This document shows, one piece after another, positions 1-35,242 of a stretch of 64,000 nucleotides of DNA. The position numbers were made by a program, and so were the translations under genes. The notes under the pieces were generated by a model. It saw only the letters and a list, made by a program, of their open reading frames with translations, had not been told where the DNA came from and made no database searches. The first letter of the stretch is position 1. The number at the start of each line of letters is the position of its first letter. The stretch lies in NCBI RefSeq assembly GCF_036417845.1, contig NC_090011.1, forward strand, positions 2,314,726-2,378,725, written 5' to 3'. This stretch comes from Apteryx mantelli (lineage: Eukaryota; Chordata; Aves; Apterygiformes; Apterygidae).

Positions 1-3000
1 CTGGCAGAGGGTGGCGCGGGGGGCCCCGCGGGGGGGGCCCCGCCGCCGCCGCCCCCCCGTCCCCCCCCCGCAGCCGGTACTGCCCCGCCGGCAGCTCCAC
101 CCAGCTGCAGCCCACCACCTCGCGGTCCACCATGAACCTGGCGCCGGAGAGCGGCGGCGTGGGGGCGCGGAGCCGGGGGGCGGCGCGGCGGCGTGGGGGG
201 CAGGAGCGGGGGGATGGGGGGGGCGGGGGGGACGGGGGGCAGGAGCAGCAGGATGTGGGGAGCAGGAGGGGGGGGACAGGGGCAGAACCGGGGGGCAGAA
301 CCGGGGAATGTGGGGGTCGGGGGGGGCAGGGGGGGCAGGACTGGGGGGCAGGAGCAGGCAGCGCGGCAGGGTGGGGGGCAGGAGCAGGGGGGACGGGGGG
401 CACCGCGAGGGGGACGGGGGGCAGAATCAGGGGGGCAGGAGAAGCACGATGGGGGGGTCGGGGGGGTCGGGGGGCAGGAGCAGGGGGCAGGAGCGGGGGG
501 GACGGGGGGCAGGAGCTGGAGAGGCCCTGGGGGTGGATGGGGGGGGCCCTGGGGGTTAGTTTGGGCCCTGAAAGGTGCAGTTTGGCCCCGGGGGGGCAGT
601 TTAGGGGCCCAGAGCAGTTTGGGAACCCTGGGGGGGGCAGTTGAGACCCTCGGGGGGCAGTTTGGGGACCCTGGGGGCAATTTTGGGCCCCGAGGGGGGG
701 CGCTTGGGGGGGCAGGGGCAGTTCAGGGATCCCAGGGGGCATCTGGGACCTGGGGCAGGGAGCAGTTTGGACCCCAGGGGAGGGCAGGGGGGGCAGTTTA
801 GACCCCAGGGGGGCAGTTTGGGACCCCGGGGGGGGGGCAGGGGGCAGTTTGGGACCCCGGGGGCGGGGGGGGGGGGCAGTTTGGGACCCCAGGGCAGGCG
901 GGGCAGTTTGGGACCCCAGGGGAGGGCAGAGGGGGCAGTTTAGACCCCAGGGGGGGCAGTTTGGGACCCCGGGGGAGGAGGGGGGGCAGTTTGGGACCCC
1001 GGGGAGGGGTGGGGCAGTTTGGGACCCCGGGGCAGAGCGGGGGGGGGCAGCGCGGGGGCCCCCACCTGATCTCGAAGTCGATGTTGGCCTCGAAGGGGGG
1101 GGCGGGCTGCACCCCCAGCGCCCCCCAGCGCAGCCCCTGCTCCAGCAGCCGCCGCGCCGGCGCCACGAGCCGCGGCAGCGCCAGCAGCACCCGCACGAAG
1201 GCGCCGCGCCGCTGCCCCCGGTACCCCAGCATGCCTGGGGGGGGCAGAACGGCGTGGGGGGGGCAAAAACGGCGTGGGGGGGGGGCAACACGGCTCCGGG
1301 GGGGGCAAAAACGGCGGGGGGGGGGCGAAAACGGCGCCACGAGCCGCGGCAGCGCGCAGCAGCACCCGCACGAAGGCGCCGCGCCGCTGCCCCCGGTACC
1401 CCAGCATGCCTGGGGGGGGGCAGAACGGCGTGGGGGGGGGGCAACACGGCGTGGGGGGGGGCAAAAACGGCAGGGGGGGCAAAAAACGGCGGGGGGGGGC
1501 GAAAACGGCGCCACGAGCCGCGGCAGCGCCAGCAGCACCCGCACGAAGGCGCCGCGCCGCTGCCCCCGGTACCCCAGCATGCCTGGGGGGGGGCAACACG
1601 GCGTGGGGGGGGGGGGCAACACGGCGTGGGGGGGGGCAACACGGCTCGGGGGGGGCAAAAACGGCGGGGGGGGGCAAAAAAACGGCGCCACGAGCCGCGG
1701 CAGCGCCAGCAGCACCTGCACGAAGGCGCCGCGCCGCTGCCCCCGGTACCCCAGCATGCCTGGGGGGGGGGGCAGAACGGCGTGGGGGGGGGGCAGAACG
1801 GCGTGGGGGGGGGGGCAGAACGGCGTGGGGGGGCAACACGGCTCGGGGGGGGGGGCAAAAAACGGCGTGGGGGGGGCGAAAACGGCGCCACGAGCCGCGG
1901 CAGCGCCAGCAGCACCCGCACGAAGGCGCCGCGCCGCTGCCCCCGGTACCCCAGCATGCCTGGGGGGGGCAACACGGCGTGGGGGGGGGGCAACACGGCG
2001 TGGGGGGGGGGGGCACGGCACATCGCCGGTCACACGTGTTGTGTGCGACACGGTCCTGGGGGGCAATTCCCCCCCTGCCACGTCCCCATGTCCCTCCCCT
2101 GTGTCCCCCCCCCGCCGTGTCCCCGCGTGGTGGCCCGGGGGGGTCCCGGGGGGGTCCCGGGGGGGGGTCACTCACTCTCCTTGTGGCACAGCTCCAGGGC
2201 GAGCACGGCGCGCCGCAGCCCCTGGCGCCCCCCCCGCAGCTCGCGCAGCACCGCCGCGTCCAGCTCCCGCTGCAGCTCCCCCAGGTGCTTCGCCTCGAAG
2301 CCTGCGGGGGGGGGACGGGATGGGGGGGGGTCAGGACGCCCCCCCGACCCCCCCCCCCAGGCCCCCAGCGCGGGGCGCCGGGAGGTGGGAGGGGCCTGAC
2401 ACCCCACCCCCCCCCGGGGCGGGCACAACCCTGCTACGAGCCAGCGGAGAAGCCCCAGGTGCGTGTGGGGCTGTGAGGGGACACGGGGGAACACGGGGGG
2501 ACACCGAGGGACATAAGACAACACGAGGGGCCATGGGGGGACGCGAGGGGACTCTGAGAATGTGGGGGGACGCAAGGGGACATGGGGGGACACGAAGGGA
2601 CACGGGGGGACGCGAGGGGACATGGAGGGACGCGAGGGGACACGAGGGGACACGGGGGGATGCGAGGGGACACAGGGGGACATGGGAGGATTCTGGGGAC
2701 ACGGGGGACACAGGGGGACACAAGGGGACACAGAGAGCCATGGGGGGGCCGCGAGGGGACACAGGGGGACATGAGGGGACGCGAGGGGACACGGGGGGAT
2801 GCGAGGGGACACAGGGGGACATGGGAGGATTCTGGGGACATGGAGGGACGCAAGGGGACATGAGGGACCAATGGGGGGACGCGAAGGGACTCTGAGAATG
2901 TGGGGGACGCGAGGGGACACAGGGGGACGCGGGGGGGACGCGGGGGGGACTCACCGGCGGGCGCGGGACGTAGAAGTAGGGGGCGAAGCCGTGGACGTGG

Positions 3001-4875
3001 CAGCAGACGCTGTGGCCGGCGGCGGTGACACCGAACATGCGGATGACGGGGACGGGGCCCTCGGTGGCACCCGGCATGCCGGGCAGCGGGGACCCTGGGG
3101 GGGACACGGGGCACGTGGGGACAGGCCACCTCCCCCCCCCAGGGACACGGGGGACGTGGGGACACGGGGGACGTGGGGACAGGCCACCCCTCCCAGTGAC
3201 ACGGGAACCCTGGGGACCCTGGGGACGTGGGGATGGGCCCCCCGGGGCAGGGGGGACCCTGGGGACAAGGGGGACGTGGGGGACATGGGGATGGGCCACC
3301 TCCAGGACACGGGGACCCTGGGGACACGGGGACATGGGGACACGGGGGACGTGGGGACAGGCCCCCTCCCGGGGCAGGGGGGGACATGGGGAACACGGGG
3401 GGGACATGGGGGACGTGGGGATGGGCCACCCCCCCCCAGGTACACGGGAACCCTGGGGACATGGGGACCCTGGGGACGTGGGATGGGCCCCCCCGGGGCA
3501 GGGGGGACATGGGGAAGATGGGGGGACACGGGGGACATGGGGATGGGCCCCCCCGGGACACAGGGACCCTGGGGACACGGGGGGGGGGACACAAGGGATG
3601 GGCCACCCCAGGGACATGGGGGACACGGGGGACATGGGAGACACAGGGGGACATGGGGATGGCCCCCCGGGGGCAGCAGGGACCCTGGGGACACGGGGGG
3701 GCACATGGGGGACACAGGGGGACATGGGGATGGGCCCCCCCGGGGGCAGCGGGGACCCTGGGGGGGGGGACATGGGGACGGGCCCCCCCGGGGGATGTGG
3801 GGACCCCAGGGACACGGGGGGGGGGGGATGCGCCACCCCTGGGCCCAGGTGTTCGGAAGGGGCCCAGGTGTGCAGGTGCCCCCCGCGGGGGGGGCCCAGG
3901 CGTCCCGGGCGGGGGGGGGCCCCGGGGGGGGCCCGGGGGGGATGGGGGGGCGGGGGGGGGCCCCGGGGGGGGGCCCGGGGGGGGGGGTCGCACCAACGTA
4001 GTGGTCGAGCTCCAGCTGCTGGAAGCAGAGACTCTGCGTCTCGGGGTCGAGGTCGGGGGGCGCCGGGCGCCGCCACTTGGGGCTGCTCTCGCCCCACGGG
4101 GGGCTCCCTGCGGCGGGGCCCAGGCGTCCGGGCCTGGCCCTGCCCCACGGCGCCCCCCGGCCCCCCCAGCCTGCCCCACGGCACCCCGACCTGCCCCACG
4201 GCACCCCAACCCGCCCCATAGCACCCCACTGCCACCCCAACCTGCCCCACAGCCCCCCCGGCCTGCCCCATGGCACCCTGACCTGCCCCACAGCACCCCA
4301 CCACCACTCCGACCTGCCCCACGGCCCCCCCAGCCTGCCCCACGGCACCCCACCACCACCCCGACCTGCCCCACGGCCCCCCCAGCCTGCCCCACGGCAC
4401 CCTGACCTGCCCCACGGCCCCCCCAGCCTGCTCCACGGTGCCCTGACCTGCCCCACGGCACCCCCAGCCTGCCCCACAGCACCCCACTGCCACCCGACCT
4501 GCCCCATAGCACCCCTTGGCCCCCCCCAGCCTGCCCCACAGCTCCCCTGACCTGCCCCACAGCGCCCCACGGCCCCCCCAGCCTGCCCCACAGCTCCCCT
4601 CTCCTGCCCCACAACCCCCCACCCTGCCCCACGACCCCCCCAGCCCCCTCTCCTGCCCCACGACCCCCGTCCTGCCCCCGGCCCCCCCGGCTCACCCAGG
4701 GCCAGCAGGTCGGGGGGCAGCGGCGACTCGGGCGCCCCCAGCTCGGCCTCGAGCGCCTCCAGCTCCTCCAGCTGCGCCAGCTCCTCCTCGAAGTGCGAGG
4801 GGGCCCCGGCCCCCCCCGCCGCCCCCCGGCCCGCTTGGGCGGGGGGGGGCCCCCGGGCGGCTGCAGCGCCTCCAT
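1..4875 (-). CDS. POLD1: POLD1, DNA polymerase delta catalytic subunit, N-terminal exons (partial at left edge)
   Basis: This is the catalytic subunit of the replicative DNA polymerase delta, which acts in the nucleus on the lagging strand with PCNA. Six coding exons are visible: 4696-4875 (ATG at 4875), 3994-4107, 2955-3094, 2176-2301, 1066-1234 and 1-137, the last leaving the window. Recognisable stretches include a PKR basic patch followed by an acidic [14 protein letters not shown] segment, [62 protein letters not shown] and [17 protein letters not shown]. All lie upstream of the exonuclease domain, which is outside the window. Splice sites are GT-AG. Three places are off frame by single bases: exon 1 near 4790-4835, the junction of exons 3 and 4 near 2955, and the G-run of exon 6 near 52-70. 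These look like sequence errors rather than a pseudogene. The acceptor side of exon 5 is duplicated in tandem (1160-1961). Confidence 0.93.
140..1063. repeat. G-rich minisatellites in POLD1 intron 5
   Basis: The plus strand is a G-rich tandem repeat. The part from about 140 to 550 is built on a GGGGGGCAGGAGC-type unit and the part from about 560 to 1060 on a GGCAGTTTGGGACCCC-type unit. Runs of five to nine G are dense, so G-quadruplex potential is high. No gene is seen in it. Confidence 0.85.
1160..1961 (-). repeat. Five-copy tandem array of the POLD1 exon 5 acceptor edge
   Basis: A block made of the polypyrimidine tract, the AG acceptor and the first ~78 nt of exon 5 occurs five times. Minus-strand copies have their acceptor ends at 1236 (the real exon), 1411, 1584, 1761 and 1961, a spacing of 173-200 bp. 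Each decoy retains the reading [16 protein letters not shown]. and breaks off after LPRLVAP, where the real exon continues with ARRLLEQG. Between copies lies G-rich filler with CAAAAACGGCG or CAACACGGC blocks. Copy 2 carries a one-base insertion and copy 4 a C-to-T change on the plus strand, so the copies have begun to diverge. Confidence 0.93.
2462..2954. repeat. GGGGACACGAGG-type minisatellite, POLD1 intron 3
   Basis: Tandem 10-12 bp units of the GGGGACACGAGG and GGGGACGCGAGG type fill nearly all of the intron between POLD1 exons 3 and 4. An about 120-bp higher-order copy is visible: the block ending in GGGAGGATTCTGGGGACA occurs near 2685 and again near 2820. Confidence 0.85.
3095..3993. 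repeat. GGGGACGTGGGGATGGGCC minisatellite, POLD1 intron 2
   Basis: About 700 bp of tandem GGGGACACGGGGGACGTGGG units alternate with GATGGGCCCCCC blocks. Poly-G tracts follow at 3890-3990. Nothing coding is seen. Confidence 0.85.
4108..4695. repeat. CCTGCCCCACGGCACCCC minisatellite, POLD1 intron 1
   Basis: Tandem units of about 18-40 bp, built on CCTGCCCCACGGC, run almost from acceptor to donor of the intron between the first two coding exons. The sense strand of POLD1 is G-rich here, opposite to its later introns. Confidence 0.83.
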
Positions 4876-5690: not shown

Positions 5691-6130
5691 AGGGAGGGGC
5701 GGGAAGGCCCCTCCCCGCCCCTCCCATAGGCTCAGCGCGGGGGTGGGGAAGGGCCCAGGCGTCCGGGGTGGCCCCGCCCCCCCCACTGGACCCCCCCCCC
5801 CCCCCCCCAAAGGACACAGGCATCCAGGTGCCCCCAAATCACTCCCCCCCTCAAGGACCCAGGTGTCCAGGTTCCCCCCCAAAATCATCCCCCCCCAAAA
5901 GGATCCAAGTGTCTGGAACCCCCCCAAAATCATTCCCCCCCCCAAAGGGCCCAGGGATCCAGGTCCCCCCTAAAATCATTCTTTTTCACCCCCCCTCCCA
6001 ATTATTCCCCCCCCCCTTCATTAAGGCCCTCAGCCCAAGCAGGACCCAGATGTCCAGGCTCCCCCCACACCCCCCCCGGATACCTGGGCCCCTACAGCCC
6101 CCCCCCCCCAACCACAAGACACAAAACCCT
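5691..6130. other. Intergenic spacer between RPS9 3' end and POLD1 5' end
   Basis: C-rich repetitive sequence, with CCCCCCAAAATCATTCCCCCC-like units at 5830-6010. It includes one copy of the dispersed GGCCCAGGCGTCCGGG motif near 5752. No gene is seen. POLD1 and RPS9 are tandem on the minus strand, with roughly 450 bp between them. Confidence 0.6.
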
Positions 6131-6214: not shown

Positions 6215-6689
6215 CTGCAAGAGACCGGGGGGGGGGGGCAGTGTGAGCACAGGAAGCTCCCCAAAACCCCCTGCCCCCCCCTCAAACCCCCTGCCCCCCC
6301 TCCGTGCCCCCTCAGACCCCCCCGGGGTGTCAAGGCCCCGGGGGGGGCACCGACGTCATCAGGGGGTGTCAGCGCCCAGTGCTGCCATCATGGGGGGCCC
6401 GGACCCCCCCCCAAATCCCCTCCCTGCCCCCCCTGATGTCCCAACACCCCAAAAGCCCCCCCAGATGGACTCCCTCAATCCTGACACCCCAATAACTGCC
6501 AGGACCCCCCCAAAGACCCCCCCAGCACCCAAATAACCCCCCAGCACCCCGATAACCCCCTGCTCAGCACCCCACCACACTGCTCCGCTCCCCCAGCCCC
6601 CAAAACACCACCTTTTCACCCCAAAAAAAACAGCCCGGACTCCTGGGCCCCCCCAGCACCCCAAAAAGCTGTGGGGTGAAAGTGTCCAG

Positions 6690-7130: not shown

Positions 7131-7168
7131 GGCCCCTCACCGGGGGCCGGGGGGAGGCAGGCCCGGGC

Positions 7169-9832
<2,664 letters not shown>

Positions 9833-9879
9833 TCAAAAAGCGGTTGGGCATCCTCCCCTCGCTCTCAGCATCTACCCCA

Positions 9880-14800: not shown

Positions 14801-17800
14801 CGGGTCCCTCGCGTCAGCCGGGATGGAGCACCCGCTGCCCCGGGGTCATTCTCCGGGTGTCCAGGGGCGACTCCGAGTCACTCGGGGGGGGGGGTGCCAG
14901 GTCCCCCAAGTGGGGCAGGCCTGGGTGGGCACCCACCGTTCCCCCCACCTCGGGGAGACGCGAAACTAGGCCAGGCGCACGCGGCCCAGAAATGTCACGG
15001 AGCAAAGGGGCGACGAGGCGGCAATGCGGGCACTTGCTGGCAGCTCCGGCATGCGGGCGACGTGTTGGGGGGCTCTAGGTCACCCAACAGGCCCGGGTCA
15101 ATCATCCTGGCATGGGTGGGGGCCTCTAGGTCACCCAGTGGGCCCAGCTCCATCACCCTGGCATGGGGGTGAGGGGTTCTAGGTAACCCAGTGGGCCCAG
15201 GTCCATCATCTTGGCGTGCATGGGGGGCTCTAGGTCATGCAAGAGGCCCAGCTCTATCACCCTGGCATGGGTGGGGGGGTTCTAGGTCACCCAATAACCC
15301 CAGCTCCACTGCCCTGCCACGGGGGTGAGGGGTTCTAGGTCACCCAATGAGTCTGGTGCCATTGCCCCAGCACGGTGGATTCTAGGTCACTCAATGGGCC
15401 CAGCTCCACAGTCTTGACGCGGAGCACGTGCTAGGTCCCCCAACAGGCCCAGCCCCATAACCCCAGAGCGGCAGGTTCTAGGTCACCCAAGGGCCCCGGC
15501 TCCATCACCCCAGCACGGGGGGCGGTTCTAGGTGCCCCAACAGCGAAGGGGCAGCTCCCCACCACATGGGGAGCTGGGGGGACGGAGCCGGGGGGCCACA
15601 CCGACCCCGAACCCCATTCCCGACCTCGACCCCATTCCAGACCCGGCAAAACCCCTGGGGCTGAGCCGGCAGCACCTGAGCTACCTGCAGGAGATCGGCA
15701 ACGGCTGGTTCGGGAAGGTGAGCGCCGGGGGGGGCCGGGGGGGGCCGGAGGGGGGTGGGGGGGGCCGGACGCCCCCTCACCCCCACCCCACACCCCCAGG
15801 TCATCCTCGGGGAGCTCCTGGCCGACGTGAGCCCGGTGCCGGTGGTGGTGAAGGAGCTGCGGGCCAGCGCCGGCCCCCTGGAGCAGAGGAAGTTCCTGGC
15901 CGAGGCGCAGCCCTACCGGTAACGGGGAGCGGGGGGCCCGGGCGTCCGGGTGGGTTCCCCCTCGCCGTGCGCAGGGGGCCCAGGCGTCCGGGGCTGACGG
16001 CCCCCGTTGCTCGCTCGGCAGGAGCCTGCAGCACCCCAACCTGCTGCAGTGCCTGGGGCTGTGCAGCGAGAGCGTGCCGCTGCTGCTCGTCATGGAGTAC
16101 TGCCAGCTGGTGAGCGCCCGCCCCCCCGCACCGCACCGGGGGGGGGGGGCATCGCACCGGGGGGGGGGGCGTGCACGGGGGGGGGGCACGGGGGGGTGCA
16201 CGGGGGGGGTTTGCACGAGGGGGGTTTGCACGGGGGGGGCACGGGGGGGTGCACGGGGGGGCTTTGCACGAGGGGGGTTTGCACGGGGGGGGTTGCACGA
16301 GGGGGGTTTGCACGAGGGGGGTTTGCACGGGGGGGGTGCACGAGGGGGGTTTGCACGAGGGGGGTTTGCCATGGGGGGGGTGCACGAGGGGGGTTTGCAC
16401 GGGGGGGGTTTGCACGGGGGGGGTGGCACGGGGGGGGGTTGCACGGGGGGGGCACAGGGCTCACACCGGGGGGGCATGCGCGGGGGGGGTTGCATGAGGG
16501 GTTTTGCATGAGGGGGGGCACAGGGCTCACACCGGGGGGGCATGCGCAGGGGGGGTTGCATGAGGGGGTTTGCATGAGGGGGGGCACAGGGCTCACACCG
16601 GGGGTTTGCACGAGGGGGGGGGCACAGGGCTCGCACAAGGGGCGCACGAGGGTCAGACGGGGGGGGTCACCCGATGGGTGGGGGGGGTCACACAAGGGGG
16701 GGGGAAGCTCACCTGGGGCGGGGGGGGCTCTCGCACGAGTGCTCACACGGGGGTCTCGCACGAGGATGGGGGGGGGCCGTGGGGCGGGCGGGGGGGGGCA
16801 GCGCGGAGGGGCGTGCGGGGGGGGGCCCGCATGCCCGGCGCCCACGGCGGCTCGCGCAGGGCGACCTGAAGCGCTACCTGCGGGCGCAGCGGGGGGCCGA
16901 GGGGCGGACGCCCGAGCTGCCCCCCCGCGACCTGGCCACGCTGCAGCGCCTGGCCCTCGAGGTGACGCTGGGCCTGCGCCACCTCCACCGCCACGGCTAC
17001 GTGCACAGGTGGCGCCCGCCCGCCCGCCCGCCCGCCGGGGCCCCTCGCGCCGGGGGGGTGGGTGGGAGCCCGGACGCCTGGGCCCCTCGTGCGGGGGGGG
17101 GGGGGGGGATGGGAGCCCGGACGCCTGGGCCCCTCGTGCGGGGGGGGGGGGAATGGGAGCCCGGACGCCTGGGCCCCTCTTCGGGAGGGGGCTGGGGGGG
17201 GGGGGGGAATGGGAGCCCGGACGCCTGGGCCCCTCTTCGGGAGGGGGCTGGGGGGGGGGGGATGGGAGCCTGGACGCCTGGGCCCCTCGCGCGGGGGGGG
17301 CCTGGGGGGAGCGGAGGGGGGCTGGGGGGGTTAACGGGGGCTAAAAGGACCCCGGACGCCTGGGCCCCTCTTCGGGAGGGGGCTGGGGGGGGTTAATGGG
17401 AGCCCGGATGCCGGGGCCCCTCGTGCGGGGGGGGGGGGGGAATGGGAGCCCGGACGCCTGGGCCCCTCTTCGGGAGGGGGCTGGGGGGGGTTAATGGGAG
17501 CCCGGATGCCGGGGCCCCTCTTCGGGAGGGGGCTGGGGGGGGGGGAATGGGAGCCCGGACGCCTGGGCCCCTCCCGCGGGCGGGGGCTGGGGGGAGCGGA
17601 GGGGGGCTGGGGGGGTTAACGGGGGCTAAAAGGACCCTGGACGCCTGGGCCCCTCTTCGGGAGGGGGGCTGGGGGGGTAATGGGAGCCCGGACGCCTGGG
17701 CCCCTCTTCTGGAGGGGTTGGGGGGGGTAAATGGGAGCCCGGACGCCTGGGCCCCTCGCGCCGGGGGGGGGGATGGGAGCCCGGACGCCTGGGCCCCCTC

Positions 17801-20800
17801 TTCGGGAGGGGGCTGGGGGGGGTTAATGGGAGCCCAGATGCCGGGGGCCCCTCTTCTGGATGGGTTGGGGGGGGTAAATGGGAGCCCGGACGCCTGGGCC
17901 CCTCGCGCCGGGGGGGGGGGGGATGGGAGCCCGGACGCCTGGGCCTCTCTTCGGGAGGGGGCTGGGGAGGGGTTAATGGGACCCCGGACGCCTGGGCCCC
18001 TCACGCGAGGGGCTGGGGGGGGGTTTAAAGGGCCCCCGGACGCCTGGGCCCCTCACGCGAGGGGCCGGGGGTCCCCGCAGCGACCTGGCCCTCCGCAACT
18101 GCCTGCTGACGTCGGAGCTGACGGTGCGCGTGGGGGACTATGGGCTGTCGCACAACAACTACCGGGTGAGGGGGACGCGGGGACGGGGGGGACACGGACG
18201 GGATGGAGGGGACACGGGGATGGGACAGGATGGAGGGGACATGGAGACATGGATGGGATGGAGGGGACATGGGGACAGGGCCAGGGACCAGGGGAGATGG
18301 AGGGACATGGGGACAGGGACAAGGACCGGACAGGATGGAGGGGACATGGAGACATGGATGGGATGGAGGGGACATGGGGACAGGGCCAGGGACCAGGGGA
18401 GATGGAGGGACATGGGGACGGGGACAAGGACCGGACAGGATGGAGGGGACATGGAGACATGGATGGGATGGAGGGGACATGGGGATGGGGATGGGATGGG
18501 ATGGTGGGGACATGGGGATGGGGCCAGGGACCAGGGGAGATGGAGGGACATGGGGACAGGGACAAGGACTGGATGGGATGGAGAAGACATGGGGACATGG
18601 ACAGGATGGGGACGACACGGGGACAGGGATGGGATGGAGGTGACATGGGGATGGGGACAAGGACTGGACGGGATGGAGGGGACATGGGGACGTGGACAGG
18701 ATGGAGAGGACACGGGGACGGGAACGTGATGGGATTGGGGGGACACAGGGATGGGGACAGGGACCAGAGGGGTTGGAGGGACATGGGGACAGGGACAAGG
18801 ACCAGACAGGATGGAGGAGACATGGGGATGGGATGGGATGGGATGGAGGGGACACGGGGACGGGGACAGGGACTGGAAGGCGTGGGGGGGGGGACATGGA
18901 TGGGCCGGGGGTTCCCGCGGGGTGACGCCGCCCCCCAGGAGGACTACTACGTCACCCCCGACCGGCTGTGGATCCCCCTGCGCTGGGTGGCCCCGGAGCT
19001 GCTGGAGGAGACGCACGGGACCCTCTCCGTGGTGGACCAGAGCAAGGAGAGCAACGTCTGGTGAGCCCGGCGCGGGGACGGCGCCACCGGCCGCCCCGGC
19101 GCGCTGTCGCCACGTCCCGCTGCGGCGGTGTTGCACGGCCCCGCTGCGGCGGTGTTGCGATGCCCTGGGGTCGTGGTGTCCTGGTCCCACGGGGTCCCAG
19201 GGTGATGGTGTCCCAGTGTCACGCTGTTGCCATGCCCTCGTGTCGTGGTGTCCTGGTCCCATGGTGTCCCAGTGCGATGGTGTCCCAGTGTCACGGTGTT
19301 GCCGTGCCCTCGTGTCATGGTGTCCTGGTCCCACGGTGTCACAGTGTTGCCATGCCCTGGTGTCATGGTGCCCCCGGTCCCACGGTGTTGCCATGCCCTG
19401 CTGCTGCGGTGTCCCAGTGCGGCGTCGTCCCAGTGTCACGGTGTTGCCGTGCCCTGGTGTCATGGTGCCCCGGTCCCACGGTGTCCCGGTGTTGCCACGC
19501 CCCGGTGCTGCGGTGTCCTGCCGCGGTGGCGTCCTGGCGCCGCGGTGCCTCAGTGTCCCGGCGTAGCCGCGTCCCGCCGCGACGGGGTCCCCGGCCGCGA
19601 CGGTGCCGCGACGGTGCCGCGACGGTGCCGCGACGCCCGGCAGGTCGCTGGGGGTGACGCTGTGGGAGCTGTTCGAGTTCGGCAGCCAGCCCTACCGGCA
19701 CCTCTCCGACGAGGAGGTCCTGGCCTACGTGCTGCGGGAGCGGCAGATGACCCTGGCCAAGCCCCGCCTCAAGCTGCCCCACTCCGACTACTGGTGAGCC
19801 CCCCGCCGCCTGTACCCCGCCGCCTGTACCCCCCCCGGGTGTCCCCTCCACCAGCTCGCTCTCCCTCGACAGGGGTAGTTTGTGCCATCCTCACCCCCGT
19901 CCCTCCGGCTGTAGTCTCTCGGCTGTTCTTACCCTGTCCCTCCAGCTGTAGTCTCCCGGCTGTCCCACCGTCCCTGCGGCTGTAGTCTCCCAGCTGTCCC
20001 GCCATCCCTCCGGGTGCAGTCTCCCAGCTGTAGTCTCCCAGCCATCCTCACTCCACCCATCTGGTTGTAGTCTCCTGGCTGCAGTCTCCTGGCCATCCTT
20101 CCACCATCCCCATGGCTGTAGTCCCCCGGCCGTCCTTCCACCATCCCTCCAACTGTAGTCTCCCAGGTGTTCTTACCCTGTTCCTCTGGCTGTAGTCTCC
20201 CAGCCTTCCTTCCACCATCCCTCTGGCTGTAGTCCCCCAGCTGTCCTCATCCCATCCATGCAGCTGTAGTCCCCCAGTCGTCCTTCCACCATCCCTCCGG
20301 CTGTAGCCCCCTGGCTGTAGCCCCCCCAGCCGTCCTCGCCCCATCCCCTCCGGCTGTAGCCCTCCAGCTGTAGCACCCCGGCCATCCTTCCACCATCCCT
20401 CCAGCTGTAGCCCCCCGGCCGCAGCCCCCCAGCCATCCTCGCCCCATCCCTCCGGCTGTAGCCCTCCGGCTGTAGCCCTCCGGCTGTAGCACCCCGGCCA
20501 TCCTTCCACCATCCCTCCAGCTGTAGCCCCCTGGCCGCAGCCCCCCAGCCATCCTTGCCCCATCCCTCCGGCTGTAGCCCTCCGGCTGTAGCCCCCCGGT
20601 CATCCTTCCACCATCCCTCCGGCTGTAGCCCCCCCAGCCATCCTCGCCCCATCCATCCGGCTGCAGCCCTCCGGCTGTAGCACCCCGGCCATCCTTCCAC
20701 CATCCCTCCAGCTGTAGCCCCCCCGGCCGCAGCCCCCCAGCCATCCTCGCCCCATCCCTCCGGCTGTAGCCCTCCGGCTGTAGCCCCCCGGTCATCCTTC

Positions 20801-23800
20801 CACCATCCCTCCGGCCGCAGCCCCCGGCCGTCCCCGTCCCACCTGCGCGGCCGCGGCCCCCCCCCCGACACCGTCGCCGTCGCCGACGCGGTGGTGCGCC
20901 GTGCCGCAGGTTCGAGGTGCTGCAGTCGTGCTGGCGCCCGGCGCCGCAACGGCCCTCGCTGGAGGAGCTGCACCGGCGGCTGAGCTGGCTGCTGCGGGAG
21001 CGACCGGCCGGGCGGCCGGGGGGCCGGCGGCGGGGCGGGGGGGCGCGGGCGGCCGCTGGGGGGGGCGGCCACGGCGCCCGTCATCACCCCCCCGGCCGCC
21101 GCCGCCGCCGCCCTCGGCCTTCCCGCTGCTCGACGGCTTCCGGGGCCGGAGGCGGACGACGTGCTGACGGTGACGGAGAGCGGCGGCGGCGGCCTGGGCT
21201 TCGAGTGCCTGTGGGAGCGCGCGCGGCACGGCCGCGGCAAGGCCAACACCGCCGCCGCCAACACCGCCGCCGACAACACCGCCACCGACAACACCGCCAC
21301 CGACAACGGCGGGCTGGCGGTGCCGGGCACCAACCCCTTCCTGGAGGCGCTGGGGACGCCCGGCGTGGTGCCCGTCATCAGCGCCCGCAGCCCCTCGGTG
21401 AGCAGCGAGTACTACATCCGCCTGGAGGAGCACGAGGAGCTCGGCACCGCCGCCGCCGCCGGAGTCACCACCGTCACGACCGCCACCCGCCGCCGCCGCC
21501 TGTTCCTCCTCCTCCTCCTCCTCGCCCGGCGGCAACCCCTTCCTGGCGGCGCCCGCCGCGGGCTCAACCCTTTCCGCGGGGTGCGGGAGACGTCGCTGTC
21601 GGAGCGGAGCGGCCGGCGGCCGGGGCTGCGCTGCCCGCTGTGCGGCGGGGACGCGGCGACGGGGACGGCGGCGGCGACGGCGACGGCGGCGGTGGCCCCC
21701 CGTGTCGCTGCGCCCCGGCGCGCGCCGAGCTGGTGCGGGGCTGGCGGCAGCGCGGAGCCCCCGGGCGGCCCCGGCGCGGCAGCGACTCCTCGCTGCGGGC
21801 AGAGCGGGGCTCGTTGGCCGACGGTGCCACCCGCCGCCACCACGCCTGGGACCGGGCGTCCCCCTCGGCCCCGTGGCAGCGGGACGCGTCCCCCTCGGCG
21901 CTGCACGCGTCCCCTTTGGGGCACGAGACGGCCCCCGTGGGCGCAGATGTCGCCCTCGGCGCTGGAGATGTCCCCACTGGCGCCGGAGACGTCCCCGTGG
22001 GGCGCAGGACGTGTCGCCTTCGGCACCGGACATGGCCCGTTCGGCACCAGGCACGTCCCCGTGGGAGCAGGACATGTCACCTTCGGCGCTGGAGATGGCC
22101 CCTTTGGCACGAGAGACGTCCCCATGGGCGCAGATGTCACCTTCAGCGCCGGAGATGTCCCCATGGGAGCAGGACATGTCACCTTCGGCACTGGAGACGG
22201 CCCCTTCGGCACGAGAGATGTCCCCATGGGCGCGGATGTCACCTTTGGCACCGGACACGTCCCCGTGGGAGCAGGACATGTCGCCTTCGGCGCTGGAGAT
22301 GGCCCCCTTTGGCACGAGAGACGTCCCCATGGGCGCAGACGGCCCCTTCGGCACCAGAGACGGCCCCGTGGGCGCAGATGTCCCCTTTGGCCCTTGGAGA
22401 CGTCCCCGTGGGTGCAGGTGTCACCTTCAGCACCGGAGGCGTCCCCTTTGGCAAAAGAGATGGCCCCGTGGGCACGGATGTCACCTTCGGCAGCGGAGAC
22501 GTCACCGTGGACCGAAGCGGCAGCGCCCAGGACACAAGGGACGTCCCCGTGGGCGCGGATGTCGCCTTCGGCACCGGAGACGCCCCCTTCGGCACCAGAG
22601 ACGTCACCTTGGATGGACGCGGCGGCGCCCAGGGCGCAGACGTCACCTTCAGCACGAGAGACGTCCCCACGGGCGCAGGAGACGCCACCTTCGGCACCAG
22701 AGACGTCCCCTTGGACAGAAGCGATGTCCCCGTGGGCGCAGGAGACGTCCCCTTTGGCACCAGGGACGTCCCCTTGGACGGAAGGGACAGGGCCCCGGGG
22801 GCGCAAGGGACGTCCCCGCGGGCACCAGAGACGACGTCACCTCCGCCACCGGGCACGGGGGCCCGGGGCACGAGAGATGCCACCTCCGCCACGCGGGACG
22901 TCCCCGCGGGCACAAGGACACGAGCGGCAGCGCCGGGGCCACCACCGCGGGAGGGTTTTCCCGGGGCGGGCGGGGCCGGAGGGGCGGGGCCTCCCCCCTG
23001 GCTCCGCCCGCCCCCGTCCCACCCCCGGGGGCCACCGTGGCAGCAGCGGGGGACCATTGGGGTCCCCCCCGGGCCGGGGGCGCCCGCCGGGGTCCCCCAT
23101 CCCGGCGGTGGCGGCGGCGGGCGCCGGCGTCCCCGCGGCCGTGGCCGTGCCGCCGCTGGCCGCGCTGGCCGAGGGCCCCGAGGAGGAGAGGGTGGCCCTG
23201 GTGGCCGGGGCCCTCGGGGACGGTCCCGGGGCCACCCCCCGGCCACCCGGGGCCACCCAGGGCTGCTGGCCACGGGGGGACCCGGAGAGGTGCCAAGAGA
23301 CGTCCCCAAAGGGACCCAAGGGAGATGCCAAGAAGCGTCCCCCAAGGGATCCCCAGAGACGTCCCCAACGGGGTCCCCAGAGAGGTGCCACGAGATGTCC
23401 CCCAAGGGATCCCCGGAGATGTCCCCAGAGAGGTGCCAAGAGAGGTGCCACGGGACGTCCCCAAAGAAGTGCCAAGGGACGTCCCCAAGGGGTCCCCAGA
23501 GAGGTGCCAAGAGATGTCCCCAGAGGGACCCTTAGAGATGTCCCCAAAGGGGTCCCCGGAGAGGTGCCAACAGACGTCCCCAAAGGGGTCCCCAAGGAGG
23601 TGCTGCAGATGTCACCAAAGGGGTCCCCAAAGGGGTCCCAGGAGAGGTGCCAAGAGATGTCCCCAGAGGGACCCTTAGAGATGTCCCCAAAGGGGTCCCA
23701 GGAGAGGTGCCAAGAGGTGTCCCCGAAGGGGTCCTCAGAGACGTGTCCGCAGGGGTCCCCAAAGGGTCCCCGAAGAGGTGCCAAGAGACGTCCCCAAAGG

Positions 23801-25337
23801 GGTCCTTGGGGAGGTGCCCAGAAGGGGACCCCAAACGGTGTCCCAAGAGGTCCCCAGAGAAGCCACCCAAGAGGACCCCCAAAGGGGCTCCAAGGAGGTG
23901 CCCAGAGATGTCCCCGAAGGGTCCCCAGCCAAGTCCCCAAAGGGGTCCCCAAAGAGGTGCCCGGAGAAGTCCCTGAAAGGGTCCCCAAGGAGGTGCCTGC
24001 AGATGTCACCAAAGGGGTCCCCAAAGAAATGCCAAGAGATGTCCCCGAAGGGATCCCCAAGGAGATGTTCAGCCAGGTCCCCAAAGGGGTCCCCAAAGAG
24101 GTGCCCGGAGATGTCCCCAAAGGGGTCCCCACGGAAACGCCAAGAGATATCTCCAAAGAGGTCCCCAAGGAGATGTCAGGAAATGTCCCCAAAGGGGTCC
24201 CCACGGAAATGCCAAGAGATATCTCCAAAGAGGTCCCCAAGGAGATGTCAGGAGATGTCCCCAAAGGGGTCCCCACGGAAATGCCAAGAGATATCTCCAA
24301 AGAGATCCCCAAGGAGATGTCAGATGTCCCCAAAGGGGTCCCCAAGAAGATGCCAAGAGATGTCCCCAAAGGGGTCCTCAAGGAGATGCCTGGAGATGTC
24401 CCCAAAGGGGTCCCCGAGAAGATGCCAGGAGATGTCCCCAAAAGGATCCCTGAGGAGATGTCAGGAGATGTCCCCAAAGGGATCCTCGAGATGCCCGGAG
24501 ATGTCCCCAAAAGGATCCCCAAGGAGATGCCAAGAGATGTCCCCAAAGGGATCCCCGAGATGCCCGGAGACGTCCCAAAAGGATCCCCGAGGAGATGCCC
24601 GGAGATGTCCCCAAAAGGATCCCCGAGGAGATGTCAGGAGATGTCCCCAAAGGGATCCCCAAGGAGATGCCCAGAGATGTCCCCAAGGGGTCCCCGAGGA
24701 GATGCCCGGAGATGTCCCCAAGGGGGTCCCCGAGGAGATGCCCGGAGATGTCCCCCAAGCGGGCCCCGACGAGGTCCCCAAAGGGGTCCCCGGCCAGGTT
24801 CCCGGGCGGTTCCCCGGCGCCATCCCCAAAAGGGTCCCCCGAGAGGTGCCCAAAGGGGCCCCCGGAGCCGCCCCCAAAGGGGCCCCCCGAAACCTCCTCC
24901 CCCGGGGGGGGCCCAGCCGCCGCCGCCACCGCCGCCGCCGCCACCGTCCCCCCCCGGCCCGGGGCCGTCGGCGAGGGGCCGGAGCCGGAGCCGGAGCTGG
25001 ATCGGTCCCCGGGGCGGGGGGCCGCCGGCGTCACCGGCGTCACCGGCGGCAGCGGGGGGGGGTGGGGGGCCGCCCCGGGGCCCCGTCGCGGGCCGGGGGG
25101 GGGGCCGGGGTGTCCCGGCGAGGGGGGGTTCGTGGTGCAGGTGTGCCAGGAGCGGCTGCAGGTCACCCTGCGGGAGGACGTCACCCGCAACCTGCTGGCC
25201 CCCCGCCAGCGGCACGGGGACGGGGACGGGGCGCCCAGCGAGGCGGGGGACGGGGGCGACGCGGCCCCCCCAGCCACCGAGCTGCCGCCATCTGCCGCCA
25301 CCACCACCGGCCCCCCCGAGCAGCGCCGACATCCGAG
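11864..25337 (+). CDS. LMTK3: LMTK3, lemur tyrosine kinase 3 (C-terminal end missing)
   Basis: A single-pass membrane kinase related to AATK and LMTK2. Exons: 11864-11969, 13113-13246, 13982-14132, 15641-15717, 15800-15918, 16022-16109, 16860-17008, 18081-18165, 18939-19060, 19644-19793, and a large one from 20910. The first ten agree in phase. Visible features are an Ala-rich signal peptide (residues 1-~30), a transmembrane segment at ~50-70 ([17 protein letters not shown]) followed by [12 protein letters not shown], the glycine loop GNGWFGKV (~150-157), the ATP-site lysine in VVVKELR (~174), the catalytic loop HSDLALRN (D~276) and GDYG in place of DFG (~293). The juxtamembrane [19 protein letters not shown] is LMTK3-specific. 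In the last exon [31 protein letters not shown] and [15 protein letters not shown] are recognised, but in different frames. The C-terminal third known from mammals is not found before the gap. Confidence 0.93.
11980..12665. repeat. CATCCCTCCGTTGTCCC minisatellite, LMTK3 intron 1
   Basis: Starts as a (TCCATCCC)n microsatellite at 12000-12125 and passes into tandem units of CATCCCTCCGTTGTCCC, with GGTCCCTGCAGCCCTCCG as a recurring longer block. From 12700 to 13100 the intron is C-rich with AATCAGCCCCACAGG repeats. Confidence 0.87.
13290..15545. repeat. GGTTCTAGGTCACCCAACAG minisatellite, LMTK3 introns 2 and 3
   Basis: Units of about 35-65 bp share the core TTCTAGGTCACCCAA and fill two consecutive introns. 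The exon at 13982-14132 is a non-repetitive island inside the same array type. The gene-specific core appears dozens of times; units towards 15100-15500 carry CCCAGCTCCATCACCCTGGC. Confidence 0.9.
16130..16850. repeat. GGGGGGTTTGCACGA minisatellite, LMTK3 intron 6
   Basis: Tandem 13-18 bp units of the GGGGGGTTTGCACGAG type, followed from 16440 by a longer unit containing GCACAGGGCTCACACC. G-runs of six to eight recur every ~15 bp, giving strong G-quadruplex potential on the transcribed RNA. Confidence 0.9.
17040..18075. repeat. GCCCGGACGCCTGGGCCCCT minisatellite, LMTK3 intron 7
   Basis: About sixteen tandem units of 45-80 bp built on AATGGGAGCCCGGACGCCTG, then GGCCCCTC and a G-rich tail with GGGAGGGGGCTGGGGG. 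The GGACGCCTGGG core is the same motif found dispersed in POLD1 and RCN3 introns. Confidence 0.92.
18170..18930. repeat. GGATGGAGGGGACATGGGGA minisatellite, LMTK3 intron 8
   Basis: Purine-rich tandem repeat of GGACATGGGGACAGGG and GGATGGGATGGAGGGGAC blocks. A higher-order unit of about 120 bp is visible at 18240-18360 and 18360-18480. The plus strand is almost free of C-runs, so it is a strongly purine-biased tract in the sense direction. Confidence 0.9.
19080..19640. repeat. GTGTCACGGTGTTGCCGTGCC minisatellite, LMTK3 intron 9
   Basis: Units of 30-60 bp containing CGGTGTTGCC.TGCCCT, then GTGTCATGGTG and CCCAGTG fill this intron. It ends in a GACGGTGCCGC quadruplet at 19596-19636. Confidence 0.87.
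19860..20825. repeat. CCGGCTGTAGCCCCCCGGCC minisatellite, LMTK3 intron 10
   Basis: Tandem units combine CGGCTGTAGCCC blocks with CATCCTTCCACCATCCCTCC or CATCCTCGCCCCATCCCTCC. The older left part uses CTGTAGTCTCCCAGCTGTCC. Near-identical long units at 20380-20500, 20500-20640 and 20700-20800 indicate recent expansion. Confidence 0.9.
21900..22800 (+). repeat. Coding-region minisatellite 1 in LMTK3 last exon ([11 protein letters not shown] type)
   Basis: A GC-rich tandem array of GAGACGTCCCC, TGGGCGCAGATGTCACC and TTCGGCACCGGAGA blocks lies between the recognisable LMTK3 segments [13 protein letters not shown] and the later conserved stretch. In one frame it reads as repeats of the [13 protein letters not shown] and [11 protein letters not shown] type; the other two frames are also largely open. 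Which frame is used cannot be decided, because the exon changes frame upstream. I know no counterpart in mammalian LMTK3. Confidence 0.82.
23285..24880 (+). repeat. Coding-region minisatellite 2 in LMTK3 last exon ([12 protein letters not shown] type)
   Basis: About 1.6 kb of 30-36 bp units, GATGTCCCCAAAGGG plus GTCCCCAAGGAGATG. Adjacent longer units near 24122 and 24194 are spaced exactly 72 bp. One frame reads as [12 protein letters not shown]-type 12-residue repeats, another as [12 protein letters not shown]-type repeats. It ends just before the Pro/Ala-rich stretch that precedes FVVQV. Unit divergence is graded, with the most regular copies at 24060-24700. Confidence 0.87.
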
Positions 25338-25560: not shown

Positions 25561-25760
25561 NNNNNNNNNNNNNNNNNNNNNNNNNNNNNNNNNNNNNNNN
25601 NNNNNNNNNNNNNNNNNNNNNNNNNNNNNNNNNNNNNNNNNNNNNNNNNNNNNNNNNNNNNNNNNNNNNNNNNNNNNNNNNNNNNNNNNNNNNNNNNNNN
25701 NNNNNNNNNNNNNNNNNNNNNNNNNNNNNNNNNNNNNNNNNNNNNNNNNNNNNNNNNNNN
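25561..25760. other. Assembly gap, 200 N
   Basis: Exactly 200 undetermined bases, probably a placeholder of unknown true size. The end of LMTK3 and the first exon of PRMT1 should both lie here or have been lost. Confidence 1.
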
Positions 25761-26030: not shown

Positions 26031-26036
26031 TTCTAG

Positions 26037-31751
<5,715 letters not shown>

Positions 31752-32420
31752 GGCCCCCCCCGCGCCCCCCCCCCCCGGGGGACGAGGCCCCCCCCCCCCC
31801 CAGCCACCGGGGGGGGCTGCGACACCCCCCCCGAGCCCCCCCTGGGGGGATGAGACCCCCCCAAACCACCTGGGGGGGCTGCGACTCCCCCTAGACCCCT
31901 CCCATTGGGGGGCTGAGACCCCCCCCAAAACCCTTTCTGGGAGGGGCCTAAGACACCCCAAAAACCCCTGGGGGGCCCCAACCCCCCCCCCAGAGGGGCT
32001 GAGACCCCCCCCCCCAAACCCCTCCCTGGGGGTCTGAGACCTCATGACCCCCCCAGCTGCTTTGGGGGGGGCCCCCAAGACCCCCCTGAACCCCCTCCCG
32101 GGGGCCCTGAGACCCCCCTGTCTCCCCTCCCCCCCTGGGGGGCCCCTGAATCCCCCCCCCCAAGCAGGGTCCTGCTGCCCCTGGGGGGGGCCTGCCCCAC
32201 ACAGGGGGTCCCCAAGTTCCCCCCTCCTCCCTTTGGGGGTCCCCTTGGGGGGGGTCCCGTCTCCCTCCCCCCCCCTTTGCCCCCCTGGGGGGCCCCCGGT
32301 TTGTGGGGGGGGGGGCAGCACGGGGGGGGGGCTGCAGACGGTTCCCCCCCCCCCTTTCGTAACTTATGTTTTTATATGGTGACGTTGCCGAGGAATAAAC
32401 GGAGCTGGGAACGGGGCCCC
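31752..32420 (+). other. PRMT1: PRMT1 3'UTR
   Basis: From the TAG to the polyadenylation signal the sequence is C- and G-run rich, with repeats of GGGGGGCTGAGACCCCCC. It has no conserved coding. The UTR is about 650 nt. Confidence 0.75.
32394..32399 (+). terminator. AATAAA polyadenylation signal of PRMT1
   Basis: AATAAA in the context CGAGGAATAAACGGAGC, about 640 nt after the stop codon. Cleavage is expected near 32410-32425. The end of the convergent RCN3 lies only about 200 bp away. Confidence 0.85.
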
Positions 32421-32614
32421 CGTGTCGCTGTGTCGCCTGGGGGGGGCCCCAGTGTCCCCGGGGGGGCCCCAAAACCCTTGGTGGGGGGGGTCCCTGGCCC
32501 TGGGGGGGTCCCCAGTGTCCCCCAGGAGGATCCCAATGTCCCTGGAGGGTCCCCAGTGACACCGGGGTGCAGGTGTGGGGAGGGGGGGAACGCAGCCCCC
32601 GAGTGCCCCCGAGT

Positions 32615-32620
32615 CTTATT
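32615..32620 (-). terminator. Possible variant polyadenylation signal (AATAAG) of RCN3
   Basis: On the minus strand CACAATAAGACTC lies about 95 nt after the RCN3 stop codon. AATAAG is a weak variant, and no canonical hexamer is seen between the stop and PRMT1's end. Tentative. Confidence 0.35.
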
Positions 32621-32715
32621 GTGTTGACTGTTCCCCCCCCCCCCCCCCCACAAATTGTCCTCTGTTCGTTTCCCCGCCGGGGGGCCCAGGCGTCCGGGGG
32701 GCCCCGGCGTCCGGC

Positions 32716-35242
32716 TCAGAGCTCGTCGTGGGGGCGGGTGAGGTCCTCGCCGTAGCTGGTGGCCTGGCTGCCCACGAACATGTTCCAGTTGCCCAAAATC
32801 TCCTCCTTGGTCAGCTTCCCGTCCTGGGGGGGGGCGGCGGGGGGGGCTCGTTAGGGCCCAGGCGTCTGGGGGGGCCAGGCGTCCGGGAGCCCTGCTCTGC
32901 CCCTAGCCCCACAGGGACCCAGGCGTCCGGGAGCCCAGGCGTCTGGGGGCCCAGGCGTCCGGCAGCCCCTGCTCTTGCCCTTAGCCCCACAGGGACCCAG
33001 GCGTCCGGGAGCCCAGGCGTCTGGGGGGCCCAGGCGTCCGGCAGCCCCTGCTCTTGCCCCTAGCCCCACAGGGACCCAGGCGTCGGGAGCCCCTTTCCGG
33101 GCCCCCCTCCCCCACCCCATGCAGGGGGCCCAGGCGTCCGGGGGCACCTTGTCGGCGTCGGACTCGTGCAGCAGGTGCTTGGCCTCCACCTCGGCCGGGT
33201 TGGTGGCCGGTGGCCGCAGCCAGTGGGCGACTTCAGCCGCATCCAGGCGCCCGTCGCCGTCCAGGTCGCGGAAGCGTCCGACTGCTCCCGCTCCGTCCGC
33301 TACCACTCGGGGCTCCGGCACCCCCGGCTCCCGGCGCGTACATGTCGCCTGTGGGCCCCGGCAGCCGGGTGAGGCGCCCGAGGGGCCCAGGCGTCCGGGA
33401 GAGATGCGCGAGGGGGCCCAGGTGTCCGGGCAACGAGTGTGAGGGGACCCTGGCGTCCGGGAGAGGTGCCCGAGGGGGCCCAGGCGTCCGGGGATGGGGG
33501 TGTTTGGGGACCCAGGCGTCCGGGCCCTGCCCCTTTCCCTCCCCCTGCCCCGAGGGACCCAGGCGTCCGGGAGAGGTGCCCGAGGGGCCCAGGCATCCGG
33601 GGATGGAGGTGTTTGGGGGACCCAGGCGTCCGGGCCCCGCCCCCTTCCCTCCCCCCGCCCCGAGGGACCCAGGCGTCCGGGCTCACCGATGTACTCATCC
33701 ACCTGGACGTAGCCGTCGCCGTTCTTGTCCATGTCCTCGATGGTCTCCGGGCGGTTCAGACAGACGTGAGGCGGCCGCCTCGGCGTGGCGGGGCCCAGGC
33801 GTCCGGGCGGCCCCCCCCGCCCCTCCCCCCCGCCCCCCGCCGGGGGCCCAGGCGTCCGGCTCACCGCTGCCACGACGAGCTTCATGTGCTCGAACTCCTC
33901 GGGGTGCAGGAAGGCGGCGAGCTCGTCGCCCCTGACCACGCCGTCGCCGTCGCCGTCGGCCGCCGGAAGCGCCGCTCCGTCCGGGCCACCAGGCCGCCGG
34001 TAGCTCTCGGGGTCCTCGACGTCCCCAAAGTCGTCGTCTGCGGGTGGGAGGGGTCATCGGGGGGGGGGCCCAGGCATCCGGGGGCCCCTGCTCTGATCTC
34101 CCCCCCCAGTCCCCTGGGGGCCCAGGCCGTCCGAGCCCCTTTCGCAGGGACCCAGGCATCCAGGAGCCCCCCTCCCTCCTCGGTGGGGGCCCAGGCGTCC
34201 GGGAGCCTCCCTCCCTTCCCAGTGGGGGCCCAGGCGTCCGAGCCCCCTTCACAGGCGACTCAGGCATCCGGCGGGGCCCAGGGCGTCCGGGCGCAACCGA
34301 CGCCGTAGCCCGCTGGCGGTACTCGCACCAGCCCAGGGCTCCGTTACCGCACGGGGGGGGGGCCCCCGGCATCCCCCTGCCTCCCCCCCCCCCGCCGCGG
34401 GGCCCAGGCGTCCGGGCGCACCAGCGCCGTAGGCCTGCTGCGGTACTCGCGCCAGCCCAGGGCGCGTCGCCGTCGCCGTCGTAGCGCTCGCGGCCCCGGC
34501 GCAGGCTCTCGGCCAGGCCGCGCCGCCGCCGCCGCTCCATCCAGGCCTGCAGCTCGGCGCCCTTCACCGCCCCGTCGCCGTCGCCGTCGATGAGCCCCAC
34601 CAGCAGCCTGGGGGTGTGTGTGTGGTGGGGGTCACGACCCCCAAAATCCCCCCCCATCCCTGTCCCAGCGGCCTGTGGGGATGGGGGGAGGCTGGGACAC
34701 ATGAGGGGACAGTGGGGACATGGAGGGACATGGGGGACACGGGGGGGGGGGGACACGGGGCACCCCAGCCCCATGTTTGCACCCAGACACCTGGGTCCCG
34801 GGATGGGGCGGACAGGGAGGGAATCACCCGGACACCTGGGCCATGGGTGGGTTCCCGATGCCTGGGCCTGTGGATAGGGGATCACCCGGAAGCTGGGGCC
34901 CCAGGACAGGGCAGGGGGGCATCTCCCAGACCCCGGGACCCCGGGATGGGGACGCCTGGGTCCTGGGACAGGGGGGGCTCCCCCGGATGCCGGGACCCCG
35001 GGAAGGGGACGGGGATGGGGGTGAGGGGGCTCCCCCGGACGCGGGGGCCTCACCCGAGGCGGCGGCGGCTCTCGTGGGGCGCCAGCTGGTCGAAGGCGCG
35101 AGCCTCCTCGGCGCCCAGAAAGGCCTCGTGGTCGTAGGCGACGCCGCGCGGGTGCTCGTGGGGCCGCCGGGGGCCCCTGTCGGGCGCCGGCTCGGCCCCC
35201 GCCAGCCAAAGCGCCGCCAGCCACACCAGCCGCCCCGGCCAT
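32716..35242 (-). CDS. RCN3: RCN3, reticulocalbin 3, ER EF-hand protein
   Basis: A CREC-family calcium-binding protein of the ER lumen. Exons (minus strand): 35054-35242, 34422-34607, 33865-34037, 33687-~33747, 33148-33348 and 32716-32823. The reading gives a hydrophobic signal ([14 protein letters not shown]) and [22 protein letters not shown]-hand loops follow: [65 protein letters not shown] and [12 protein letters not shown]. The last exon ends [20 protein letters not shown] and the HDEL retrieval signal, which identifies RCN3 rather than RCN1 or calumenin. The ATG at 35242 is one base out of frame with the signal peptide. Further single-base breaks lie near 34455 and 33985-34010. The exon at 33148-33348 is locally scrambled near 33285-33310, where a TAG falls in a conserved position. 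The acceptor of exon ~33747 reads GG.AG and is unclear. Confidence 0.92.
32850..33680. repeat. Clustered GGGCCCAGGCGTCCGGG motif in RCN3 introns
   Basis: The introns flanking the 33148-33348 exon consist largely of 20-60 bp units carrying CCCAGGCGTCCGGGAG. Longer duplicated blocks contain CCCCTAGCCCCACAGGGACC (three copies at 32895, 32980 and 33060) and GAGGTGCCCGAGGGGCCC. More copies continue at 34060-34280. Confidence 0.9.
34290..34465 (-). repeat. Two-copy duplication of an RCN3 donor edge
   Basis: The 3' end of the exon 34422-34607, its donor and part of the intron are repeated once downstream (minus-strand sense) at about 34290-34345. The real edge reads LGWREYR..AYGA and the decoy [12 protein letters not shown]. 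On the plus strand both share CGGTACTCGC.CCAGCCCAGG with TCCGGGCGCA beside it. Spacing is about 120 bp. Confidence 0.85.
34620..35053. other. RCN3 intron with GGGACACGGGG and CGGGACCCCGGGA repeats
   Basis: A short TGTGTGTGTGGTGGGG tract at 34611-34628, GGGACATGGGGGACACGGGG repeats at 34690-34760 and GATGCCTGGGCC-type blocks at 34790-35040. Nothing coding is recognised. Confidence 0.6.

Follow-up and report, generated by a model that had tools for sequence, protein, structure and literature searches.

In 64,000 nucleotides of contig C34 (C34:2314726-2378725, referred to here as the window) and in the 10 kb adjoining its start, ten arrays over 41 introns, five in each region, repeat the edge of a coding exon together with its splice site. 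These arrays belong to the exon stuttering that Hron et al. 2026 (PMC12954441) named on the dot chromosomes of chicken, and they probably arise by local tandem duplications, some of which happen to straddle an exon border and capture it passively. The copies are real and the phenomenon is already published; what we describe is its occurrence in another genome and in other genes. The initial annotation of this DNA had held such arrays to be something not known to be described, a position overtaken by the chicken report.

The assembly comprises 1,504,198,195 bases in 408 contigs, and C34 (2,665,363 bases) looks like a tiny, repeat-rich bird chromosome; GC content in the window runs from 63 to 78% in 2-kb steps. 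Five genes occupy the first ~35.2 kb: POLD1 (minus strand), RPS9 (minus), LMTK3 (plus), PRMT1 (plus), and RCN3 (minus). Pfam families support four of the five (POL3_N, ribosomal S4, kinase, and methyltransferase); POLD1 exon 1 alone gave no Pfam match, and the name POLD1 was given by a PDB match. RCN3 shows similarity to EF-hand (calmodulin) proteins only. The names LMTK3, PRMT1, and RCN3 are those we assign from our reading of the translations, for which searches returned kinase, methyltransferase, and EF-hand only. Between POLD1 and RPS9 lies a SNORD88 C/D-box snoRNA (6305-6399, minus strand) that scores 59.7 bits where the cut-off is 46; Rfam gave no other match in window positions 1-37000.

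Exon-edge arrays in the window and beyond its start

We rebuilt the published exon-stuttering screen on hand-made exon models of POLD1, RPS9, LMTK3, PRMT1, and RCN3, searching 36 exons against 31 introns with blastn-short on the sense strand only and adopting the published score cut of 42.1 bits (Hron et al. 2026). Sixteen matches of at least 20 bases were returned. The 12 that score at least 34 bits all sit in the intron adjoining their source exon, at five places, and 10 of these 12 reach 42.1 bits, in four introns, with PRMT1 intron 1 at exactly 42.1. The highest scores in shuffled introns were 40.1 bits (20 mononucleotide shuffles) and 36.2 bits (20 dinucleotide shuffles). RCN3 intron 2, at 40.1 bits, falls under the 42.1 cut. 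The sources and their decoys in the window are as follows.

1066..1234, minus strand: POLD1 coding exon, source of an acceptor array; exon bases 1-77 copied, 5 copies including the exon
1332-1409, 1506-1582, 1683-1759, and 1883-1959, minus strand: four POLD1 decoy exon starts with acceptor, 98.7-100% over 77 exon bases
26677..26705, plus strand: a sixth, degenerate copy of the beginning of PRMT1 exon 2; score 16 against 14 for the best of 500 dinucleotide shuffles
26734..27268, plus strand: four decoy starts of PRMT1 exon 2 with acceptor; 21 exon bases each, spacing 165-184
27423..27578, plus strand: PRMT1 coding exon 2, source of an acceptor array; 5 copies including the exon
28621..28763, plus strand: coding exon 4 of PRMT1, whose last 47 bases recur in a donor array; 3 copies including the exon
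28880-28926 and 29044-29090, plus strand: two decoy ends of PRMT1 exon 4 with donor GTGAGG, 89.4%
30078..30228, plus strand: coding exon 7 of PRMT1, whose last 38 bases recur in a donor array; 3 copies including the exon
30312..30464, plus strand: two decoy ends of PRMT1 exon 7 with donor GTGAGC, 94.7% and 89.5%
~34281..34349, minus strand: one decoy end of RCN3 exon 2 with donor; alignment score 43 against a maximum of 23 in 500 shuffles
34420..34607, minus strand: RCN3 coding exon 2, donor source, frame broken in the assembly; 2 copies including the exon

The copies that the initial annotation had reported at five places in three genes are all present beside their source exons and above shuffled controls, and its copy counts (five for POLD1; five, three, and three for PRMT1; two for RCN3) are borne out, with the degenerate sixth copy as an addition at PRMT1 exon 2. 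Its list of five places is complete at the 42.1-bit cut for the 31 modelled introns, and more arrays lie beyond the window. The POLD1 decoys at 1332..1959 recur at a spacing of 173-200, their filler consists of ~20-bp C-rich monomers, and the TRF array spans 1158-2015. Those of PRMT1 exon 2 begin at ~26734, 26918, 27083, and 27248; three of the four score at least 34 bits, and the first, which has an inserted base and scores below 34 bits, was identified in the sequence itself. BLAST places the copied source no more than 1 base from the exon border in eight of the ten arrays, the exceptions being POLD1 exon I, which ends 2 bases short, and RCN3, where the pairwise alignment extends through the donor despite the BLAST match ending 20 bases short. 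By eye, the RCN3 decoy retains the reading frame that its exon has lost.

In the 10 kb beyond the window start, ten further POLD1 exons were modelled (A to I, with E counted as two) after being located with a human POLD1 query sequence, which also gave many partial exon copies there. Four of the ten introns in this region are stuttered, at five edges (the last intron is truncated by the end of the stretch), and the maximum in shuffled introns is 34.2 bits (20 shuffles). Here, too, each reported match sits in the intron adjoining its source exon, again with a search of the sense strand only. At the 42.1-bit cut, 4/31 introns pass in the window and 4/10 in the adjoining 10 kb. Intron A|B of POLD1 (C34:2310483-2314610; 4,128 bp) is stuttered from both ends and is the most extreme case in this analysis: 12 decoy donors repeat the last 77 bases of exon A, 10 of them identical to the exon (100%), and 10 decoy acceptors repeat the first 60 bases of exon B, all 10 of them identical (100%). 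A second search tool run over the whole genome found exon B once and its edge (63 query bases) ten times, in one place only. Further POLD1 edge copies belong to exon C (one), exon H (one), and exon I (two).

Placement of the arrays relative to exon borders

TRF arrays cover 68% of the 19,840 intron bases in the window and 89% of the 8,427 intron bases beyond its start. Exon bases are covered to 5.8% without LMTK3 exon 11 and to 33.8% with it; this exon (20910-25337) carries long tandem repeats in coding sequence with several frame switches, and represents either relaxed coding sequence or assembly base errors. We modelled placement by drawing random duplications of the observed sizes, which survive if they are intronic or if they span one border and do not engulf an entire exon; the first two models use the whole gene structure, and the third places each array within its own intron. 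The window holds 24 TRF arrays of period at least 60 in introns which, with RCN3 intron 2, make 25, and five of these carry an edge (at least 20 exon bases) compared with 5.7 ± 2.1 expected (P(≥5) 0.71). The same kind of model applied to the window plus the adjoining 10 kb yields 7.3 expected for 8/34 seen, and the adjoining 10 kb alone has 3/9 edge arrays for 1.9 expected. When only TRF arrays are considered, 7/33 carry an edge versus 6.2 expected at present intron lengths (P 0.43); with the expansions subtracted the expectation becomes 12.4/33, so that the seven seen are a deficit (P(≤7) 0.02). Including the three arrays found by the exon-directed screen alone brings the count to 10/36, for 7.1 (P 0.16) or 13.3 expected.

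An excess at edges is not demonstrated by these counts, and the real situation falls somewhere from a slight preference to a slight avoidance; a mild preference is conceivable because of the 10/36 against 7.1 (P 0.16) and the 3/9 against 1.9. Edges catch the attention since duplicated exon sequence can be recognised as such, unlike duplicated intron sequence. The idea that repeat units are nucleated on exon boundaries gives way here, since edge arrays are as numerous as random placement predicts, and after the placement models we set it aside as unnecessary.

It is accordingly unlikely, in our judgment, that exon borders are preferred start points of a process tied to splice junctions, such as repair at G4 or C-runs or transcription-linked breaks. 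In its favor are the ten edge arrays in 41 introns, the POLD1 intron stuttered from both ends, and the 8/41 introns that reach 42.1 bits against 3.4% in chicken dot chromosomes (binomial P 6e-5), a value on the high side in a comparison that is weak because the exon models are hand-made, the choice of window was guided by the feature, and a single gene (POLD1) is very active; moreover, the authors of the chicken figure call it a minimum. Against a border preference, the counts fit random placement and the de-expanded model expects still more edge arrays than were seen. Nor is the strand of the G-richness constant: taking one filler for each of the ten edge arrays, the filler is G-rich on the coding strand in 6/10 and C-rich in 4/10, a composition that has no bearing on the link to edges either way. 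The earlier suggestion of G-rich tracts abutting exons, taken as a general role, thus finds no support, and we rejected strand bias (R-loop or transcription-linked G4) as a common cause. A four-run G4 motif occurs on one strand or the other in 9/10 fillers. Clear microhomology, judged by eye, is confined to two of nine founding junctions (CGCCG at POLD1 exon 5 and a C-run at exon A; RCN3 not included); the founding junction of PRMT1 exon 2 has a homeologous stretch, maybe an old copy, and the remaining junctions appear to have 0-2 bases.

Growth of the arrays and the state of the decoys

Under local tandem duplication with passive capture, tandem repeats with lengths from tens to hundreds of bases would come and go in the introns of this chromosome, and the first duplicated segment (~115-200 bp) would occasionally span an exon-intron border. 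Such an event would be tolerated, as the intact exon with its own splice site stays at the outer end of the array; the truncated copies would end up inside the intron, and the genuine site would be the one nearest the exon's other splice site. Later growth would copy units or blocks of units within the array, producing decoys from decoys, and exon borders would be caught in passing rather than targeted. Replication slippage or out-of-register exchange is the plausible enzymology.

Several features of the arrays speak to this growth. The decoys of PRMT1 exon 4, PRMT1 exon 7, and POLD1 exon I have common changes that are absent from their own exon, so that in these three arrays decoys were multiplied from an earlier decoy instead of being taken anew from the exon; the remaining seven, with a single decoy or without any common change, say nothing on descent. 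Fillers 1-5 of the 12-decoy array are the same as fillers 7-11 after homopolymer compression, and in the 10-decoy array fillers 0, 2, 3, and 4 equal 5, 7, 8, and 9 exactly, with 1 and 6 one gap apart. These correspondences suggest that five or six units at a time were copied as a block, as would happen in unequal exchange or large slippage.

The functional exon might act as a master copy, with gene conversion repeatedly restoring the decoy edges from the exon or from other decoys as the filler drifts, a scheme to which we assign low odds. If it were true, sequence would pass both ways between exons on dot chromosomes and their own copies in the introns. Counted on the raw sequence, 6/6 arrays have fewer substitutions per site in their exon part than in their filler (e.g., 0.0000 versus 0.0276 in array B and 0.0052 versus 0.0737 in POLD1 exon 5; the sums include the true exon in all six arrays, and PRMT1 exon 2 is represented by four copies without its first decoy), a pattern not expected from plain neutral copying. 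After homopolymer compression the exon part is lower in 4/6 arrays; the odds of a master copy are lowered because the other two reverse, PRMT1 exon 2 (0.0278 versus 0.0102 in filler) and PRMT1 exon 4 (0.0650 versus 0.0612). In array B, the 60-base exon part is unchanged in 11 copies and three filler types differ at six substitution sites; as the cleanest case for conversion or selection, it gives only P 0.04. We did not accept selection on the decoys or conversion, as the filler alignments are uncertain and G-runs in the filler may mutate easily.

Decoy splice sites, another claim of the initial annotation, exist at the sequence level, and GT or AG is kept in 34/34 decoys examined. Their use as alternative sites, which would add coding repeats in POLD1 or destroy transcripts in PRMT1, is nevertheless very unlikely. 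Many of the POLD1 decoys would, if used, give an in-frame and stop-free extension (6/12 exon A donors, 8/10 exon B acceptors, and 2/4 for exon 5), but each of the eight PRMT1 decoys would run into a stop once the exon is extended (the first was placed two bases off in this test, which leaves the stops of the shorter extensions unaffected), and at PRMT1 exons 4 and 7 and POLD1 exon I the decoys are altered at positions where the exons have retained the residue, as judged against the human proteins. Under exon definition, decoys would be at a handicap, and this would account for their presumed silence.

An artefact of assembly or consensus, in which read errors or misjoined repeats created the copies, is likewise very unlikely. 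Apparent single-base frame breaks in POLD1 exon 1, PRMT1 exon 5, RCN3 exon 2, and LMTK3 exon 11, together with a 200-N gap at 25561-25760, could be cited for it, and these single-base losses in coding exons and the gap do suggest limited base accuracy; exact copy numbers may be wrong in the assembly. The copies, however, differ from one another by substitutions and by filler structure, the second tool sees the same exon B copies, though in the same assembly, and in chicken the repeat structure of PHF8 introns was checked in raw nanopore reads (PMC12954441). The assembly holds no second haplotype copy of PRMT1 exon 2 or POLD1 exon B.

Other loci, known systems, and genomic setting

Edge copies were sought at related loci elsewhere in the genome. 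PRMT8 on the large contig C1, presumably the ohnolog of PRMT1 and identified by similarity, has no edge copy of at least 42.1 bits at any of its eight exon loci with 1.5 kb flanks, against 3/8 exon loci with an edge copy in PRMT1 (Fisher P 0.2). Seven further PRMT-family loci (C4, C36, and C44) have none at 42.1 bits, nor do 30 tested of 61 kinase matches (22 outside C34, among them four AATK-like loci on C19 with a flank GC of 71-74%, and eight in LMTK3). LMTK3, itself on C34, thus carries no edge copy, and high GC alone is insufficient. In total, 3/16 loci on C34 and 0/37 elsewhere have an edge copy (Fisher P 0.02; 1.5 kb flanks and approximate exon ends). The possibility entertained at the outset that the frequency here is ordinary thus divides: it is not so for the sampled genome (0/37 loci outside C34), and arrays of this kind are known from dot chromosomes. 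A search for the adaptin family gave no match on C34 among the 50 matches listed.

As described in the main text of Hron et al. 2026 (PMC12954441), exon stuttering in chicken affects 236 introns in 115 genes, 190 of these introns lying on dot chromosomes; >90% have a source no farther than 1 base from the border, copy numbers range between 1 and 44, and length varies in 86% of dot introns. Local repeat expansions are mentioned in other birds in some instances, and the mechanism is left open between replication stress at G4 and meiotic conversion. The arrays described here agree with that account in that an edge plus its splice site is directly tandem-repeated in the adjacent intron, on what looks like a small, GC-rich chromosome with repeat-filled introns, with no copies in the presumed ohnolog on a large contig. 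The exon part is 21-77 bases here and 20-187 in the published set, with 1-12 and 1-44 extra copies, respectively. The two differ in that ours is another genome, of 1.504 Gb, and in that length variation was seen in chicken whereas one assembly is considered here. POLD1, PRMT1, RCN3, LMTK3, and RPS9 are not named in the main text of that report.

Two other systems are related. Beauclair et al. 2019 (PMC6792250) describe chicken genes missing from assemblies, likewise with tandem-repeat introns and G4-prone motifs; the available part of that paper does not mention exon edges within the repeat unit. In intron gain by tandem duplication (2016, PMC4974935), a duplication crossing an intron-exon border likewise carries splice signals, but there, in the portion seen of that source, one duplication gives rise to a new intron, whereas here there are arrays of decoys. 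Among the titles and abstract openings of the literature searched, PMC12954441 is the only report found of exon edges in intron arrays. With the present data, exon stuttering is seen in a further genome and reaches POLD1, a replicative polymerase that is essential; a placement model in which exon edges are caught about as often as by chance and the descent of decoys from decoys in three arrays are additions not found in the main text of PMC12954441. The question accordingly moves from why exon edges are copied to why introns on dot chromosomes duplicate so freely and how splicing copes.

From 36957 to 64000 the window consists of satellite whose periods are 81 and 91 bp, with the 81-bp unit present in ~316 copies, and which reaches the window end, so that at least 27 kb of satellite lies at one side, from ~37 kb on. 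Chicken dot chromosomes have a gene-rich part and a heterochromatic part, as outlined in the text seen of PMC9974502, and by analogy the window looks like the border between two such parts; this setting suggests that the animal is a bird.

A sharp-edged motif, GGGCCCAGGCGTCCGG, occurs 46 times in the window at ≤1 mismatch on both strands, where chance predicts 0.06 (e.g., at 17070-18051, 32682-34415, 4116-4131, and 5751-5766). At ≤2 mismatches there are 56 occurrences, none of them in the 36 modelled exons, and conservation stops after ~18 bases. The dispersed 16-mer is not enriched near splice sites in the window, with 10 occurrences within 30 nt versus 8.7 expected, and CCCAGGCGTCCGG was not found printed in the literature searched. 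Genome-wide, GGGCCCAGGCGTCCGG has 8,525 exact copies and its reversed control 0; among the first 100 of the 8,525 matches listed, six are on C1, all ≤2.4 Mb from a contig end. Being dispersed, the motif is not a product of local stuttering; perhaps it serves as a core from which minisatellites in introns arise.
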